A stretch of DNA of 64,000 nt from Enterovibrio calviensis DSM 14347. GTDB taxonomy: Bacteria; Pseudomonadota; Gammaproteobacteria; Enterobacterales; Vibrionaceae. Where the stretch lies: assembly GCF_000621165.1 (NCBI RefSeq), contig NZ_KK211219.1, forward strand, positions 125,727-189,726, given 5' to 3'. Under the pieces are notes generated by a model. That model was not told the origin of the DNA and did no database searches. It worked only from the letters and a program-made list of their open reading frames with translations. The translations under genes were made by a program, and so were the position numbers. This document shows, piece by piece, positions 46,898-54,995 of the stretch (within the stretch, counting starts at the first letter, position 1; the number at the start of each line of letters is the position of its first letter).

Positions 46898-49528
46898 TTA
46901 TCCGGTGTTGCGCATACCTGCAGCGATACCCGCGATGGTCACCATCAAAGCTTCATCAAGCTCGACGCTTTCATCGTCACAGGCGCGTGTTCGACTGAGC
47001 AGTTCCGCTTGAAGCATGTTAAGCGGCTCAACGTAGATATTACGCAAGCGGATGGCTTCTGCACCCCATGGGTTTTGCTCCATGAGGTGATCACTGTTCT
47101 CGACCATTAGTACGGCTTTGATGTCTTGTGCCAGACGGGCACGAAGTTGTTCACCCAGAGGCCAAAGCGCTTCATCAACCAACTTCTCATCATAGTATTG
47201 AGAAATCGACGGACTGGTCTTGGTGAACACCATTTCTAGCATGCCGAGGCGGGTAGAGAAAAACGGCCATTCACGACACATCTCTTCCAACTGCTTCAAG
47301 TGACCATTGTCGATGGAGTATTGAATTGCTTGTCCCGCACCCAACCAAGCTGGAAGTAGCAAACGGTTCTGGCTCCATGCAAAGATCCATGGAATCGCTC
47401 GTAGGCTTTCTACGCCGCCATTCGGGTTACGTTTGGCAGGTCGTGAACCCAGTGGCAATTTGCCAAGCTCTAATTCAGGTGTGGTCGAGCGGAAGTATGG
47501 GACGAAATCTTTACTGCCACGCACCACATCGCGGTACGCTTCGCAAGACACATCACTCAATGCCTCCATCAGATCACGCCACTCTTGTTTCGGCTCTGGT
47601 GGTGGTAGCAAATTCGCTTCTAGGATAGCGCTGGCGTAAAGGTTAAGGCTGTTGGTTGCGACGTCTGGTAGACCGAGCTTGAAGCGGATCATCTCACCTT
47701 GCTCTGTCACACGTAAGCCGCCTTTTAGGCTGCGTGGTGGCTGAGAAAGTAGGGCTGCGTGTGCAGGTGCACCGCCACGACCAATCGAGCCGCCACGACC
47801 GTGGAACAAGACCAAGTCTACGCCGGATTTTTCACACAGGGTGACGAGTGATTCCATCGCCTTGTATTGTGCCCAACCCGCCGCCATGACACCTGCATCT
47901 TTGGCTGAGTCGGAATAGCCAATCATGACCATCTGGAAGTTTTGGATGAAGCCGCGATACCAATCGATATTCAGCAGCTGGCTGATCACCAATTCAGCGT
48001 TGTTCAAATCTTCGAGGGTTTCGAACAGCGGGCACACGTCCATTCTAAACGGACAACCTGCTTCTTTAAGAAGTAGGTGAACGGCGAGTACATCAGAAGC
48101 CGTACGCGCCATGGAGATAACGTAAGCACCTAATGCTTCTCGTGGCTGCTGTGCGACGATTCGGCAAGTATCCAGTACTTCTTGAACATCATCAGACGGC
48201 TCCCAATCACGAGGCAGGAGAGGGCGCTTGGAGCTCAATTCACGGATCAAGAACGCTTGTTTGTCTTGCTCACTCCATTGGCTGTAGTCACCCATGCCAA
48301 GGCAACGAGTGATTTCAGACAAAGCATCGGCATGACGGGTGCTTTCTTGGCGAATGTCGAGCTTGATGAGGTTGACGCCGAAGCAGCGAATACGACGCAA
48401 GGTGTCGAGCAGCAAGCCGTCAGCAATGATGCCCATGCCGCAATCGTGCAGCGATTGGTAGCACGCATGTAGTGGGGTCCACAGCTGATCGACATGAGTC
48501 AGGATATCTTTCTCATCAATGTGCTGACCTTTGATCTTTGCATCAAGGTAATCGAGCGTATTGGTGAGTGTTTTACGAAGAGATTTCAAAATCGCACGGT
48601 ACGGTTCGTGCTCATCGCCCGCCATGGCGCGAACAACATCGTTACAACGCGTCATCGACAGCTCGCTGACCAGTTCTTGAATATCACCAAGATAAAGGTC
48701 GGCGGCTTTCCAGCGTGAAAGCAACAGGACTTCGTGTGTCACTTCTGCTGTTACGAATGGGTTGCCGTCACGGTCTCCACCCATCCAGCTTGAGATTTGA
48801 ATTGGCGCAGCATCAACAGGTAGGCGCTTGCCGAGATGACCTTTGAGTTTCTGATCAAACTGGCGTAAGAATTCAGGAACTGCTTGCCACAAGCTGTTCT
48901 CGATGACCGCATAGCCCCATTTCGCTTCGTCTAGCGGTGTAGGGCGTTGCTGGCGGATAACGTCTGAATGCCATGCTTGTGCAATCAATTGTTCTAAACG
49001 TAACTCGGCTTTACCACGCTCAGTGCTGGACAGATCGTTCAGCTCTAGCTGCGATAAGCATTTGTTGATTTGAACGAGCTTATGAATTGTGGTGCGACGT
49101 GCGATTTCAGTCGGGTGCGCGGTCAAGACCAGCTCTATCTTCAGATCATCAACGGCTTTTTCGGCATCGTTGCTGGAGACATCATTGCCTTTAAGGCGTT
49201 GAAAGAGGTCGTCTAATGCATCTGGGCTGCAGATCAGCTCTTCGCAATTGCGAGAGATAGAGTGATATTGTTCAGCGATATTGGTGAGGTTAAGGAACTG
49301 GCTAAACGCTCGCGCGACTGGCAGCAATTGGTCGTTAGGCAGACTTTGAAGTACGTCAATGAGCTTGGCGTGGTCATCTTTATTGCCTGCGGATGCAGAT
49401 TTTGAGAGCTTGCGAATCTCTTCTACCTTGGCCAACAATTCATCACCATGCGCACCCTTGATGGTGTTACCCAACAAGTGTCCTAGCATGCTGACGTTGC
49501 TTTTTAACGCGTCATACTTGTCATTCAT
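46898..49528 (-). CDS. ppc: Phosphoenolpyruvate carboxylase
   Basis: Anaplerotic enzyme forming oxaloacetate from phosphoenolpyruvate and bicarbonate. The 876 residues are typical for vibrios. Catalytic H138 is in [14 protein letters not shown], and the second signature [12 protein letters not shown] and the loop [10 protein letters not shown] are present. The C-terminus ends [10 protein letters not shown], as required for allosteric aspartate binding and activity. Divergent from argCBGH, with aphA downstream on the same strand but beyond a terminator. Confidence 0.98.
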
Positions 49529-49760
49529 AAGTCATCCATTTCGTAACTTTGTTACATCCAAATTGCAATCTTAATGGCTCAATCTAGCCAATGAGTGCCC
49601 CTAAGGTCAATCTTATACGTATCGAAATTGATACTTTTTCCTTCACACCCCTTTGCTCATGGGGTGTGCGGGCATGTGTAACAAAATTACATTGAATGAA
49701 GGGCTCATCGCGTATGTGCGAGCGACTAATAAACTTGGTGCTTTTATTTTATGTATACTG

Positions 49761-49789
49761 TTGACATTAGTCACTTATCACGCTAAAAA
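49761..49789 (+). promoter_or_regulatory. Sigma-70 promoter of the arg operon
   Basis: TTGACA (49761-49766) and TAAAAA (49784-49789) with a 17-base spacer. The predicted transcription start near 49796 falls inside the first ARG box, which suits repression by ArgR. The leader before argC would be about 200 bases. Confidence 0.6.
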
Positions 49790-49827
49790 GCACATATAAA
49801 TTCATTTTAAATGAATAAACAATTATA
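49789..49827. promoter_or_regulatory. Pair of ARG boxes (ArgR operator)
   Basis: Two 18-base boxes, 49789-49806 and 49810-49827, are separated by exactly 3 bases, the spacing of ArgR hexamer sites in E. coli. Each matches WNTGAATWWWWATTCANW at 15 of 18 positions by my count. Box 1 keeps the ATTCA half and box 2 the TGAAT half. Confidence 0.75.
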
Positions 49828-49862
49828 AAGCTCATTGGATGTAGCGAAAGGTACGATACGAA

Positions 49863-49910
49863 ATGGATAAGTTCTCAACCCCCCTTCTCCAGCGACGACG
49901 CCGACGTTAA
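49863..49910 (+). CDS. Candidate arginine leader peptide of the arg operon
   Basis: A 15-codon frame, MDKFSTPLLQRRRRR, ends in five consecutive arginine codons (CGA, CGA, CGC, CGA, CGT) directly before TAA. AAAGG lies 11 bases upstream of the ATG. It falls within the predicted argC leader transcript, after the ARG boxes and 87 bases before argC. Arg codons lie in one arm of an RNA stem that competes with a downstream hairpin (see the attenuator feature). This is the layout of an amino-acid leader peptide whose stalled ribosome reports low charged tRNA. I do not recall a described arginine leader here. The peptide might instead act as an arginine-sensing arrest peptide. Confidence 0.6.
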   Translation: MDKFSTPLLQRRRRR

Positions 49911-49969
49911 TTAAAGACGTTGGGCGCGTGTGCCCCTCCCACAGCTGAGCGAGCTGATTGTTTCATCAG
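49893..49969 (+). promoter_or_regulatory. Candidate attenuator hairpins in the argC leader
   Basis: Stem A: CGCCGACGT (49899-49907, within the Arg codons) pairs with ACGTTGGGCG (49917-49926), nine pairs with one bulged G. Stem B, mutually exclusive with it: GGGC (49922-49925) pairs with GCCC (49932-49935). Then CAGCT / AGCTG (49942-49956) and CTGAT / ATCAG (49954-49969) are alternatives to each other. No strong T-tract follows any of them, so intrinsic termination is not proven. Rho-dependent termination or control of argC translation is possible. Confidence 0.4.
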
Positions 49970-49997
49970 TCATGACTAGACAGTTAAACGGATTTTT

Positions 49998-51005
49998 ATG
50001 TTAAAGACAGTGATCGTCGGTGCCAGCGGTTATACCGGTGCCGAGCTAACCAAAATGGTTCACCTACACCCTCAACTTGAATTGAACGGCCTCTATGTGT
50101 CTGAAAACAGTGCAGATGCCGGCAAGCCAATCAGCGACCTTCACGGTACATTAAAAGGCTTGATTGATATGCCTTTGTCGCCGCTAAGCGATGTCGACAG
50201 TGTGGCGAAAACCGCGGATGTGGTGTTGTTGGCAACCGCGCATGAAGTGAGCCATGACATTGCACCTGCCTTTCTTGCGCAAGGATGTAGGGTTTTCGAT
50301 TTATCTGGGGCGTTTCGTGTTCAATCAGACAGCTTTTACACAACCTTTTATGGGTTCGAACATCAACACTCTGATTGGCTAGATAAAGCGGTTTATGGTT
50401 TAGCCGAGTGGAACCACGAAGCGATTGCGAACGCAGATTTAGTTGCGGTGCCTGGGTGTTACCCTACCGCCGCGCAACTTGCACTTAAACCTTTGATTGA
50501 TAATGGGCTGTTGAACTTAGAACAGTGGCCAGTTATCAACGCCGTGAGCGGTGCATCGGGCGCAGGACGTAAAGCATCCATGGCGAACAGCTTTTGCGAA
50601 GTCAGCCTTCATGCTTACGGTATATTCAGTCACCGTCACCAGCCTGAAATCTCAACCCATCTTGGTTGTGATGTTATCTTCACGCCGCATCTTGGCAATT
50701 TCAAACGCGGAATTCTCGCAACCATGACAGCAAAGCTTGCCGATGGTGTGACAGAATCCGCAGTGTCTTCAGCACTCGAGTCAGCTTATCAAGATATGCC
50801 ATTGGTGCGCCCATTGGGAGCCAACCAAAGTGCCAAGCTGCAATCGGTCCAAAATACGGGCTTTTGTGACATTGGCTGGTCGGTGAATGGTCAGCATGTG
50901 ATCCTGACTTCTGCCATTGATAACTTGCTAAAAGGCGCGGCAAGCCAAGCCATGCAGTGCATAAACATTCGTTTTGGTTTTGCGCCTTTAACGGCGATTG
51001 TGTAG
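49998..51005 (+). CDS. argC: N-acetyl-gamma-glutamyl-phosphate reductase
   Basis: NADPH-dependent third step of arginine synthesis. The 335 residues start [17 protein letters not shown], the Rossmann motif. The catalytic cysteine is C154 in [13 protein letters not shown]. The start has almost no Shine-Dalgarno (ACGGATTTTT), which may matter for leader-dependent control. First gene of argCBGH(A); argB follows 10 bases later. Confidence 0.96.
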
Positions 51006-51015
51006 GAGATTCACA

Positions 51016-51795
51016 ATGAGTTTACGTCCTCTTGTCGTGAAATTAGGTGGTGCAGCACTGTCTTGTGCTGAAACATTAGAGAAACTGTTCGACGCGATTG
51101 CAGCTTATAAAGCATCGGCCCATCGTGACATCGTGATTGTTCACGGTGGTGGTTATCTAGTCGATGACCTGATGAAGGCATTGAACCTAAAGGTCGAGAA
51201 GAAACAAGGCTTACGTGTGACGCCGAGCGACCAAATCAATGTGGTCGCAGGTGCGCTTGCGGGTACAGCGAACAAGTTGCTGCAAGGACAAGCGGTAAGA
51301 AGCGGCATTAATTCTGTCGGCTTGAGTTTGGCCGATGGTGGCTTGTGCCAAATGACGCAAATGGACCCAGAGTTGGGCCATGTTGGAAAAGCTGCGCCCG
51401 GTGACTCTGCGCTGTTACAAGCCATTTTGGCGACAGGTTGTGTGCCTATCATTAGCTCAATCGGTATTGATGCCGAGGGTGAGTTGATGAATGTGAATGC
51501 CGATCAAGCGGCAGTTGCCGTGGCTGCGGCACTCGATGCTGAATTGGTACTGCTTTCGGACGTGAGCGGTGTGCTAAATGGTAAAGGCAAGCTAATGCCT
51601 GCACTGGATGCAAAATTGGCGGATGAATTGATTGAAAGCGGCGTGATCACTGACGGCATGATAGTCAAAGTGAAAGCGGCGTTTGAAGCGGCAACGGCGT
51701 TGGGTCGTCCAATTGAAGTGGCGAGCTGGCGTTATCCCGAAAAGTTGGCTGACTTGTTCAGCGGCGGCAATATCGGTACCCGTTTCACTGTTTAA
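51016..51795 (+). CDS. argB: Acetylglutamate kinase
   Basis: Phosphorylates N-acetylglutamate, the second step of arginine synthesis. From the ATG at 51016, preceded by TAGGAG, it is 259 residues starting [17 protein letters not shown]; the open frame extends back into argC. Amino-acid-kinase motifs are [24 protein letters not shown] and [17 protein letters not shown]. It is the short type, lacking the N-terminal helix found in arginine-inhibited kinases, which suggests no direct feedback inhibition. Confidence 0.96.
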
Positions 51796-51867: not shown

Positions 51868-53079
51868 ATGAGCACTATTAAGAAGGTTGTACTTGCGTAT
51901 TCTGGCGGTCTCGACACGTCGGCGATCATTCCATGGTTGAAAGAAAACTATGACTGTGAAGTTATCGCGTTTGTTGCGGATGTAGGCCAGGGTGAAGAAG
52001 AGCTGGTTGGCATCGAAGAGAAAGCAATCGCGTCAGGTGCATCAGCGTGTTACATCGCTGACCTGAAAGAAGAAATGGTTGCTGACTACATCTACCCAAG
52101 TTTGAAAACGGGTGCAGTGTACGAAGGTAAATACCTGCTAGGTACGTCAATGGCGCGTCCAATCATTGCAAAAGCGCAAGTTGAGTGCGCATTGGAAGTG
52201 GGTGCGGATGCACTGTGTCATGGTTGTACGGGTAAAGGTAACGATCAGGTTCGTTTTGAAAGTGCTTTTGCAGCACTAGCACCGCACCTGAAAGTGATTG
52301 CGCCTTGGCGTGAATGGGATCTGCGTAGCCGTGAAGCGCTGCTGGATTACCTTGCAGAGCGCAATATCCCTTGTACCGCGAGTCTTGAAAAAATCTATAG
52401 CCGTGATGCAAACGCATGGCACATCTCGACAGAAGGTGGCGTACTAGAAGATACGTGGAACCAGCCAAATGATCTTTGTTGGGTATGGACAGTTGATCCA
52501 GAGCAAGCACCAGACCAAGCCGAAACCGTTTCTCTGCTCGTCGAGAAAGGTGAAGTGGTTGCGGTTGATGGCCAAGCCATGTCGCCATACCAAGTGCTGA
52601 CAACCTTGAACGAAAAAGGCGCTCGCCACGGTGTAGGCCGTATCGATATCGTTGAAAACCGTTTGGTGGGCATGAAGTCTCGCGGTTGTTATGAAACGCC
52701 GGGTGGCACCATCATGATGGAAGCACTGCGTGGTGTTGAGCAACTGGTACTGGACAAAGATTGCTTCGAGTTCCGTGAAGAGTTGGGCTTGAAAGCGTCT
52801 CACCTGATTTATGATGGTCGTTGGTTTACACCACTTTGTGAGTCGATTTTGGCAGCATCAGATAAGCTGGCAGAACCTGTAACAGGCGAAGTTGTGGTGA
52901 AACTGTACAAAGGACAGGCTACAGTAGTGCAAAAGCGCTCGATCAATAGCTTGTATTCAGAAGAATTTGCGACGTTTGGTGAAGATGATGTTTACGATCA
53001 CAGCCATGCTGGTGGCTTCATCCGTCTCTACTCTCTATCAAGCCGTATCCGTGCGCTAAACGAAAAAAAACAAAAATAG
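51868..53079 (+). CDS. argG: Argininosuccinate synthase
   Basis: Condenses citrulline and aspartate using ATP. The 403 residues belong to the type I family. The PP-loop is [16 protein letters not shown] at the N-terminus, and [13 protein letters not shown] and [13 protein letters not shown] are conserved substrate-binding blocks. AAGGAGAAGTTACT gives a strong ribosome site. In E. coli argG lies apart from argCBH; here it is within the operon. Confidence 0.97.
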
Positions 53080-53117: not shown

Positions 53118-54995
53118 ATGGCGTTATGGGGCGGAAGGTTTAGTCAGGCAGCCGACACACGTTTTAAGCAGTTTAATGATTCGTTGCGTTTTGACTATCG
53201 CCTCGCAGAGCAGGACATCGTGGGTTCTATCGCTTGGTCTAAAGCGTTGCGCTCTGTCGGTGTTCTGACAGAGCAGGAGCAACAGCGTTTAGAGCTAGCG
53301 CTCAACGAAATCAAGCTGGCTGTGATGGAAGATCCAGAACAGATCCTGCGCTCTGATGCCGAAGATATTCATAGCTGGGTCGAGCAGCAGTTGATTGCCA
53401 AAGTCGGCGACTTGGGTAAAAAGCTGCACACGGGTCGTTCGCGTAACGATCAGGTGGCCACCGATCTTAAGCTATGGTGTCGTCAGCAAGGTCAGCAGCT
53501 TCTCCTTGCTCTTGATAAGCTACAAAACCAAATGGTTCAGGTAGCAGCAGTCAATCAAAGCACGGTATTACCCGGTTATACACACTTGCAACGCGCCCAA
53601 CCGGTGACGTTTGCGCATTGGTGTCTAGCCTATGTAGAAATGTTTGAGCGCGATTACTCTCGTTTGAGCGATGCCCTCAACCGCCTCGATACCTGCCCAT
53701 TGGGTTCAGGTGCCTTAGCGGGAACGGCTTACCCTATTGACCGTGAAGCGCTGGCACACAGCCTGGGCTTTCGTCGCGCAACCCGCAATAGCTTAGATTC
53801 CGTGTCTGACCGTGACCACGTGATGGAACTGATGTCCGTGGCGACCGTTTCTATGCTTCACTTGTCGCGTATGGCGGAAGACCTGATTTTCTATAACTCC
53901 GGTGAATCTAACTTCATTGAGTTGGCTGATACAGTCACTTCAGGTTCATCCCTGATGCCACAAAAGAAAAACCCCGATGCCCTTGAGCTGATTCGTGGTA
54001 AGACAGGTCGTGTGTACGGCGCAATGTCAGCCATGATGATGACGGTAAAAGCGTTGCCGTTGGCTTACAACAAGGACATGCAGGAAGATAAAGAAGGCTT
54101 ATTTGACGCGCTGGACACGTGGTTCGACTGCATCGAAATGGCAGCTTTGTGTTTTGATGGCATCAAAATCAACAAAGAGCGTACGTTGGAAGCGGCCATG
54201 CAAGGTTACTCCAACGCCACAGAACTTGCTGACTACTTGGTTGCTAAAGGTATTCCTTTCCGTGAGGCGCACCATATCGTGGGTGTTGCTGTGGTGGCGG
54301 CCATTGAGAAAGGCTGCGCATTGGAAGAGTTGAGTCTCGAAGAGATGAAGCAATTCTCCACGGTTATTGACGAAGATGTTTACCCCATTCTGACCATCGA
54401 ATCTTGCCTAGAAAAACGCAGTGCCTTAGGCGGCGTTGCACCGACGCAAGTTGAGTATGCGATCAGCCAAGCTGAGAAACGTCTTGATAAGCGCTATTCA
54501 CCGCGCGTGAAGGTACGCGGAGCAAGGTTGACTGACCTTGATGCGATCGAAGGTATGGTGGTGTACTGGGCAGGTCTCGGTGAGAACTTGCCGCGTGAAC
54601 GTAATGAGTTAGTACGCGATATTGGCTCTTTCTCTGTGGCAGAGCACCAAGGGGAAGTAACGGGTTGTGCGTCGCTTTATGTCTATGACTCTGGCCTTGC
54701 TGAAGTGCGCTCTTTGGGCGTGGAAGCGGGTTGGCAGAACCAAGGCCAAGGCAGCGCCATCGTTCAACATTTGCTGAAAAAAGCGAAGAGCATGGCTATA
54801 AAGAAAGTGTTTGTGCTGACACGTGTTCCAGAGTTTTTCATGGGGCAGGGCTTTATCCCAACATCAAAATCCTTGTTGCCTGAGAAGGTGATGAAAGATT
54901 GTGAACGTTGTCCTCGCTTGCACGCATGTGATGAAGTTGCGCTCGAGTTTACTTTCGACCAAGACCGTCTTATCGCCAAAGCCAATGTGGCATAG
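53118..54995 (+). CDS. argH: Argininosuccinate lyase fused to N-acetylglutamate synthase-like domain
   Basis: 625-residue fusion. Residues 1-455 are argininosuccinate lyase: [13 protein letters not shown] start, [17 protein letters not shown], and the signature [18 protein letters not shown], which holds the catalytic serine loop. Residues about 465-625 form a GNAT domain ([40 protein letters not shown] is its acetyl-CoA loop). This 'ArgH(A)' arrangement is known in Vibrio and Moritella and supplies N-acetylglutamate synthase without a separate argA. AAGGAGAAG precedes the start. Last gene of the operon. Confidence 0.95.

Follow-up and report, generated by a model that had tools for sequence, protein, structure and literature searches.

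Arginine codons upstream of argCBGH

The window, by which we mean the whole stretch of 64,000 nucleotides analysed here, carries an argCBGH operon (Table 1), with ppc upstream on the opposite strand. The last gene of the operon (53118-54995) is a fusion of argH and an acetyltransferase. Ahead of argC lies a short open reading frame (ORF), which the original prediction had described as a 15-codon frame with five Arg codons, three of them CGA, 87 bases from argC. Translation of 49863-49910 confirms the frame. The Arg codons read CGA CGA CGC CGA CGT and are followed by TAA, and the argC start at 49998 agrees with a distance of 87 nt from the leader stop. As in a classical attenuator, a short ORF with a start, a stop and a plausible ribosome site precedes the operon, and it contains a run of end-product codons, five Arg in the window and an Arg pair in relatives.

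A sigma-70 promoter and ARG boxes had also been proposed, and plausible matches to both are in place. However, a consensus promoter scan did not return the TTGACA/TAAAAA pair, and we therefore grade this promoter as weak. The tandem ArgR-box-like sites each differ from the ArgR-box consensus at 3 positions, and matches of equal quality occur at chance frequency in the window (10 observed, 9.8 expected). Only their tandem placement at the promoter counts toward ArgR, and it is suggestive.

Table 1. Coordinates of the argCBGH operon and of the features read upstream of it
Feature	Position	Strand	Basis
Plausible sigma-70-like promoter, TTGACA 49761-49766 and TAAAAA 49784-49789	49761..49789	+	Sequence reading, weak
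Two ArgR-box-like sites in tandem (49789-49806, then 49810-49827), spaced by 3 bp	49789..49827	+	Consensus scan, 3 mismatches each
Possible Shine-Dalgarno AAAGG, 11 nt 5' of leader start	49847..49851	+	Sequence reading, putative
Leader ORF, MDKFSTPLLQRRRRR then stop	49863..49910	+	Translation; kept ahead of argC in relatives
CGA-CGA dicodon, conserved sensor core	49893..49898	+	Comparison with relatives
Stem 1:2, Arg codons as 5' arm, CGCCGACGT 49899-49907 with ACGTTGGGCG 49917-49926, one bulged base	49899..49926	+	Sequence reading
Stem 2:3, GGGC 49922-49925 with GCCC 49932-49935, exclusive with 1:2	49922..49935	+	Sequence reading
GCCCCTCCCACAGC, locally rich in C, where Rho might load	49932..49945	+	Composition
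Hairpin C, CAGCT-GAGCG-AGCTG	49942..49956	+	Consensus hairpin scan, consensus fold
argC, N-acetyl-gamma-glutamyl-phosphate reductase, first operon gene	49998..51005	+	TIGR01850, 385.8 bits against a cut-off of 233.6
argB, acetylglutamate kinase, start tentative (51019-51792 scanned)	50998..51795	+	TIGR00761
argG, argininosuccinate synthase	51868..53079	+	TIGR00032
argH with C-terminal N-acetyltransferase domain	53118..54995	+	NF008964 full length; acetyltransferase models at about residues 464-610

Conservation of the leader in Vibrionaceae

Among 80 named loci, 62 are from Vibrionaceae, and 45 of these 62 have an Arg-codon leader with CGACGA ahead of argC, the Arg codons being terminal or nearly so. 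The leader is present in all ten Enterovibrio/Grimontia loci, where the peptide ends in RRRRR, in both Veronia loci (RRRR and RRCR) and in 31 of 31 Photobacterium loci, where the tail is RRR and the start is usually MNQA or similar. Two further loci, with the titles Vibrio sp. Of7-15 (RRRRI) and Aliivibrio sp. (RRRQV), have a leader each. The other 17 named loci, titled Vibrio or Aliivibrio, have no leader ahead of argC, which suggests from these comparisons that it was lost within Vibrionaceae. By eye, these leaderless regions (for example L035, L037 and L055) are AT-rich and contain promoter-like and ArgR-box-like stretches.

Genomes examined by handle extend this picture. All eight genomes of genus g9 carry the leader, with CGA CGA CGC TAG, and further tails are LRRC (G004), LRR (G011), RRRLS (G013) and LRRR (G060, CGA CGA CGT). 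An RNA model of the Photobacterium type, R1, matched 52 of 52 genomes of genus g7, once each, as well as G003, G008 and G011, and in the subset compared with argC positions the matches lie directly upstream of argC. R1 missed genus g1, of the Enterovibrio type, as well as g9, and a lack of R1 matches is therefore no evidence that the leader is absent. Two R1 matches in genus g12 (G176, G242) were rejected as leaders; they span 26 model positions. A second model, R2, returned in the genome of the window the argC site and one match at chance level (E 1.5). At two loci (G013 C19:52390-53391 and G043 C4:54205-55207) the argC match is split in several pieces while the leader is intact, which could be sequencing error or real decay.

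CGA-CGA is fixed and reaches beyond Vibrionaceae

To count leaders irrespective of codon, we collected ORFs that start with ATG, span 6-35 codons, have RR among their final eight residues and end 55-200 nt before argC. Such ORFs occur in 57 of 88 Vibrionaceae regions and in 24 of the 81 taken from elsewhere in the order; the 31 Vibrionaceae regions lacking one are mostly Vibrio and Aliivibrio. The Arg-Arg dicodon is CGACGA in 57 of 58 Vibrionaceae ORFs and in 22 of 24 ORFs of the other order regions. On the reverse strand, the same search gave five and three RR-tailed ORFs, and none of these eight uses CGACGA. The count omits the window itself (the near-identical L002 is included), L145 and L148, which duplicate L027 and L051, and the distant ArgC-like L165 and L166. 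No RR-tailed leader was found in the 18 named Enterobacterales loci (L064-L081).

For the wider order, 148 genomes were searched and 81 upstream regions outside Vibrionaceae were analysed, with 20 regions (L264-L283) excluded. CGACGA lies within 180 nt of argC in 27 of the 81, whereas each of ten other hexamers does so in 0-4; three regions have CGACGA in the far 180 nt. All 27 sites are in frame within an ATG-started ORF, against 19.3% of positions. Three more distant sites are not counted among the 27: L184 (a leader-like ORF with CGACGA at -337), L219 (-400) and L248 (-304). The near sites fall in eight families (f2 2/2, f6 6/6, f7 5/8, f11 1/2, f13 2/2, f16 3/3, f17 5/6 and f25 3/6), and none was found within 180 nt in f3 (0/9), f5 (0/1), f9 (0/2), f10 (0/4), f12 (0/5), f15 (0/3), f19 (0/7), f21 (0/6), f23 (0/1), f26 (0/1) or f27 (0/7). 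A class-level draw gave 0 of 29 regions with CGACGA within 180 nt of argC and four carrying it farther up (-200 to -402); in four of the 29, contig ends displaced the upstream stretch, and one locus, L284, is itself from the order.

Across 55 of these genomes, each of five invariant Arg columns in ArgC draws on 3-6 codons; the most frequent one accounts for 36-62%, and CGA for 0-4 of 55. The short frames L162 and L170 are left out of this comparison. Because its 57 leaders were preselected by the CGACGA string, the codon-blind count is the unbiased one. Among window ORFs of at least 250 aa, CGA makes up 74 of 737 Arg codons, and none of 40 Arg-Arg pairs is CGACGA. After CGA-CGA, the third codon in the 57 leaders is CGC in 53, TGC in two, CGT in one and a stop in one. 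With the pair fixed and the third codon freer, the conserved unit is the CGA-CGA pair. Before other genes, CGACGA was absent in 20 mostly leader-bearing genomes, with 0 of 21 regions for OTCase (the fragmentary G016 OTCase, L327, excluded) and 0 of 20 for carA. The carA region of the window's own genome (L354) has one RR-tailed ORF, coded AGACGC.

The leader is thus not a chance ORF. It reaches beyond Vibrionaceae, and the finding is wider than first proposed. Conserved Arg-codon runs in relatives had been named as a check on the original prediction. Arg-codon leaders are indeed conserved, but the run varies from two to five codons and its core is CGA-CGA. We take the reader of CGA in these genomes to be an inosine tRNA-Arg. 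In the Salmonella his leader, strong de-attenuation is seen with Arg pairs that include CGA, a codon reported to be decoded poorly by the tRNA for CGU/C/A (excerpts of PMC4046918).

Competing stems around the leader stop

Two mutually exclusive stems had been drawn for this RNA, the first with Arg codons as its 5' arm, and both are found in the window (Table 1). The window leader fold as a whole is unremarkable (z = -1.1, with 23 of 200 shuffles as good). Among Enterovibrio, Grimontia and Veronia, the core helix of stem 1:2 is paired in 96.2% of cells over 13 sequences; one pair shows a two-sided change, in two sequences, a count reached by 140 of 500 shuffles. Stem 2:3 in the same genera likewise has a single pair changed on both sides, which does not exceed shuffles, and in L002, the nearest relative of the window, it is no stronger than shuffles (-7.0 versus -7.6, 12 shuffles). 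Hairpin C is invariant across 13 sequences, and because it never varies the alignment is neutral on its pairing.

Leaders of the Photobacterium type form stem 1:2 from other material, the codons after ATG (AACCAAGCGA) pairing with TCGCTTGGT after the stop. In 24 such leaders 98.1% of cells are paired, compared with 20-40% when the arms are slid. Two pairs have two-sided changes, which 17 of 500 shuffles reach, and the covariation score exceeds that of all 500 shuffles, although related sequences can exceed shuffles without structure. The consensus fold of the full Photobacterium-type alignment consists mainly of 1:2, and differences in loop length misalign 2:3 and hairpin C. Five leaders of the P. 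phosphoreum clade have stem 2:3 and no convincing 1:2, with no leader pairing better than shuffles. Of 35 leaders tested, 13 pair with their post-stop RNA better than shuffles do (p ≤0.05). By eye, codons near the leader start in two f13 loci (L197 and L202; AAGACTAA in L202) pair with post-stop TTAGTCTT, which parallels the Photobacterium MNQA stem.

Covarying stems had been a further check on the original prediction. The Photobacterium-type 1:2 keeps its pairing through two-sided changes; the single such change in the core of the Arg-arm 1:2 does not go beyond shuffles. The stem with Arg codons as an arm holds in Enterovibrio/Grimontia and less clearly in Veronia, whereas Photobacterium leaders use the beginning of the ORF as the pairing arm.

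We modelled a ribosome on the leader in two ways. When its footprint was masked, the window went from 0.75/0.00 for 1:2/2:3 in the ribosome-free fold to 0.01/0.60 with the mask at Arg1. The same mask brought 2:3 to 0.97 in both L005 and L008, with 1:2 falling to 0.01 in L005 (from 0.70/0.01) and to 0.00 in L008 (from 0.46/0.41). No switch was seen in L006, where 2:3 is already folded without a ribosome (0.83), and in the Veronia leader L012 the mask at Arg1 lowers 2:3 from 0.70 to 0.38. When pairing across the ribosome was forbidden instead, 2:3 exceeded 0.5 at Arg1 in 53 of 58 leaders, but the window reached only 0.30. A ribosome at the stop also allowed 2:3 to form in 32 of 58. In Photobacterium, masking the Arg codons still permits 1:2, while a ribosome at the stop favours 2:3; for most of these leaders the two calculations disagree on the fold favoured with the ribosome at the Arg codons.

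Candidate output elements

No convincing intrinsic terminator with a U-tract precedes argC in the window. The absence of a clear T-tract, as originally described, holds, and the one match from the consensus scan is at 49942-49956, a 5-pair stem with the tail ATTGTTTCAT. Rfam covariance models run over 49000-50400 gave 0 matches up to E=1, with no T-box or other described RNA family. Positions 49927-49946 contain 10 C and 4 G. The whole gap has no such excess (C 0.253, G 0.267), and the C excess in the window is thus only local.

Over the last 100 to 12 nt before argC, 54 of the 57 Vibrionaceae regions with a leader are richer in C than in G (means.289 and.190), compared with 13 of the 31 that lack one (.130 and.128). 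The leader-bearing exceptions are L049 and the nearest relatives of the window, L002 and L003. The excess in leader-bearing regions is compatible with Rho-dependent termination, for which the window itself is a poor example. Because of the composition of the gap in the window, we hold the attenuator reading with lower confidence.

In family f17 (L218, L224, L226, L260 and L261), the Arg codons form the 5' arm of a hairpin in five of five leaders, with energies of -11.7 to -20.8 kcal/mol. The tails are U-rich in four (for example UCUUUUC or GCUUUUUU) and weak in L260. Since the CGA codons are part of the 5' arm, a stalled ribosome would block this hairpin directly, and the predicted sign is the expected one, a ribosome stalled on the Arg codons preventing the hairpin. 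In family f7, three of five leaders have very stable hairpins with U runs behind them: L230 (-28.8 kcal/mol) and L232 (-33.1 kcal/mol) with UUUUUUU, and L238 (-30.0 kcal/mol) with AUUUUU. These three resemble textbook intrinsic attenuators, here for arginine. The other two, L245 and L246, have no stable U-tailed hairpin, and no output element was identified in leaders of f2, f6, f11, f13, f16 or f25. Only these f17 and f7 hairpins are counted as terminators; a broader U-tail scan proved too permissive, since it scores each scanned segment as a whole.

Discussion

The reading that best accounts for these observations is that the ribosome mediates attenuation of argCBGH in response to charged tRNA-Arg, the CGA-CGA sensor being fixed and the outputs interchangeable. 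From sequence comparison we give it a probability of about 0.72. The original reading of an arginine leader and attenuator is supported, Arg-codon leaders being kept before argC and CGA-CGA being fixed. It is close to certain that the leader is a conserved functional element, and it is likely to sense arginine supply. Support for the output step in the lineage of the window is only moderate.

We infer ribosome stalling, with ArgR as a second layer and Rho at the output, as follows. The leader would be translated while it is being transcribed. When charged tRNA-Arg is short, the ribosome would stall on the poorly decoded CGA codons. In the lineage of the window, the stalled ribosome would cover the Arg codons that make up the 5' arm of 1:2, and 2:3 could then form, hiding the start of the C-rich stretch, and transcription would continue into argC. 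When arginine is plentiful, the ribosome would finish and leave, 1:2 would form with the C-rich RNA exposed, and transcription would end before argC, with Rho as the likeliest means, although we rate Rho itself slightly below even odds. At least two further families couple this sensor to U-tailed hairpins resembling intrinsic terminators.

Another way to read the leader is that it sets translation initiation of argC or stability of the mRNA, and not transcription, as in Salmonella speF. The window, with neither a U-tract nor an overall C excess, leaves room for this, and a hairpin shortly after the stop is common in argC leaders too. The excerpted text of PMC6386406 describes orf34, the speF leader, as relying on consecutive Arg codons, a post-stop hairpin, Rho and RNase G. 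However, no helix covers the argC start in two consensus folds, and f17 and f7 pair the same sensor with U-tailed hairpins, which are expected to act on transcription. We consider an effect on translation or stability unlikely, while giving it some weight.

It could also be the nascent peptide that matters, an Arg-rich C-terminus blocking the ribosome on free arginine or another ligand independently of tRNA charging. Arg residues do stand directly before the stop in many leaders. Yet conservation extends beyond the amino acids to the identity of the codons, the residues preceding the Arg pair differ among families, and in some families the pair is at the start (MRRHNHCFL) or several codons 5' of the stop, all of which makes such an arrest very unlikely. 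We give still less credence to the idea that a protein or small RNA binds CGACGA, with the ORF incidental; the hexamer is invariant at the nucleotide level, but the sequence flanking it changes among families and it sits in frame at all 27 order sites. That the leader has no regulatory function and ArgR alone controls argC is barely credible, given conservation over genera and families with controls, for all that ArgR-box-like sites lie at the promoter and 31 of 88 Vibrionaceae regions have no leader.

Attenuation by charged tRNA-Arg would place the argC leader beside several known systems. The his, trp, leu, thr and phe attenuators consist of a short ORF rich in cognate codons followed by competing RNA stems. 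The argC leader likewise puts a cognate-codon ORF before a biosynthetic operon, with competing stems after the ORF. It differs in that the cognate amino acid is arginine and the codons are fixed as CGA-CGA, in that the Arg run is sometimes only two codons, and in that the window has no intrinsic terminator.

The nearest counterpart among the reports listed is Salmonella speF orf34, which is comparable in sensing arginine through consecutive Arg codons and in its post-stop hairpin, and Rho is involved there; its Arg codons govern how the mRNA folds and decays by RNase G (PMC6386406, in excerpt). The same excerpts describe a polyamine gene and a conserved DUF2618 peptide, whereas the argC leader serves a biosynthetic operon and conserves a codon pair. 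The speF codons are AGG and CGG, and a swap to CGACGA or to frequent codons kept regulation. The leader in the window is not of this type, since the gene downstream is argC and the peptide has no HIRRT*HIMM core as given in that partial text. In Pseudomonas aeruginosa, carA has a leader peptide with possible pyrimidine-linked attenuation (cited in PMC4997734, in excerpt). It too precedes a gene of the arginine/pyrimidine pathway, but as far as the excerpt goes attenuation there is tied to pyrimidines and the gene is another one, and our 20 genomes have no CGACGA before carA.

In the Rho-dependent leaders of Salmonella mgtA and mgtCBR, translation of a leader ORF reportedly decides whether transcription continues. 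Leader translation would govern transcription at argC in a like manner, with the differences that the mgt leaders respond to other signals and serve no arginine operon.

To our knowledge, arginine biosynthesis in gammaproteobacteria has been described as ArgR repression without attenuation. Among the matches listed from open-access full texts, a scope that takes in few subscription journals, no arginine leader or attenuator before argC was found. The main text of PMC2965389 contains neither 'argC' nor 'arginine', and the excerpts of PMC8632094 and PMC2659441 describe no argC leader.

A more speculative idea, which we hold as possible but doubtful, is that CGA-CGA is an old, order-wide sensor of the decoding capacity of inosine-34 tRNA-Arg (its charging, perhaps its A-to-I modification) and not of arginine generally, with outputs swapped among an intrinsic terminator, an Arg-codon terminator and Rho. 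With an arginine leader conserved in Vibrionaceae and in eight further families of the order, arginine synthesis would come under a second layer of control, based on tRNA, that has seemingly gone unnoticed. Such leaders would also offer a natural example of codon identity, and not that of the amino acid alone, being held fixed, and would make the choice of sensor codon by bacteria directly testable.
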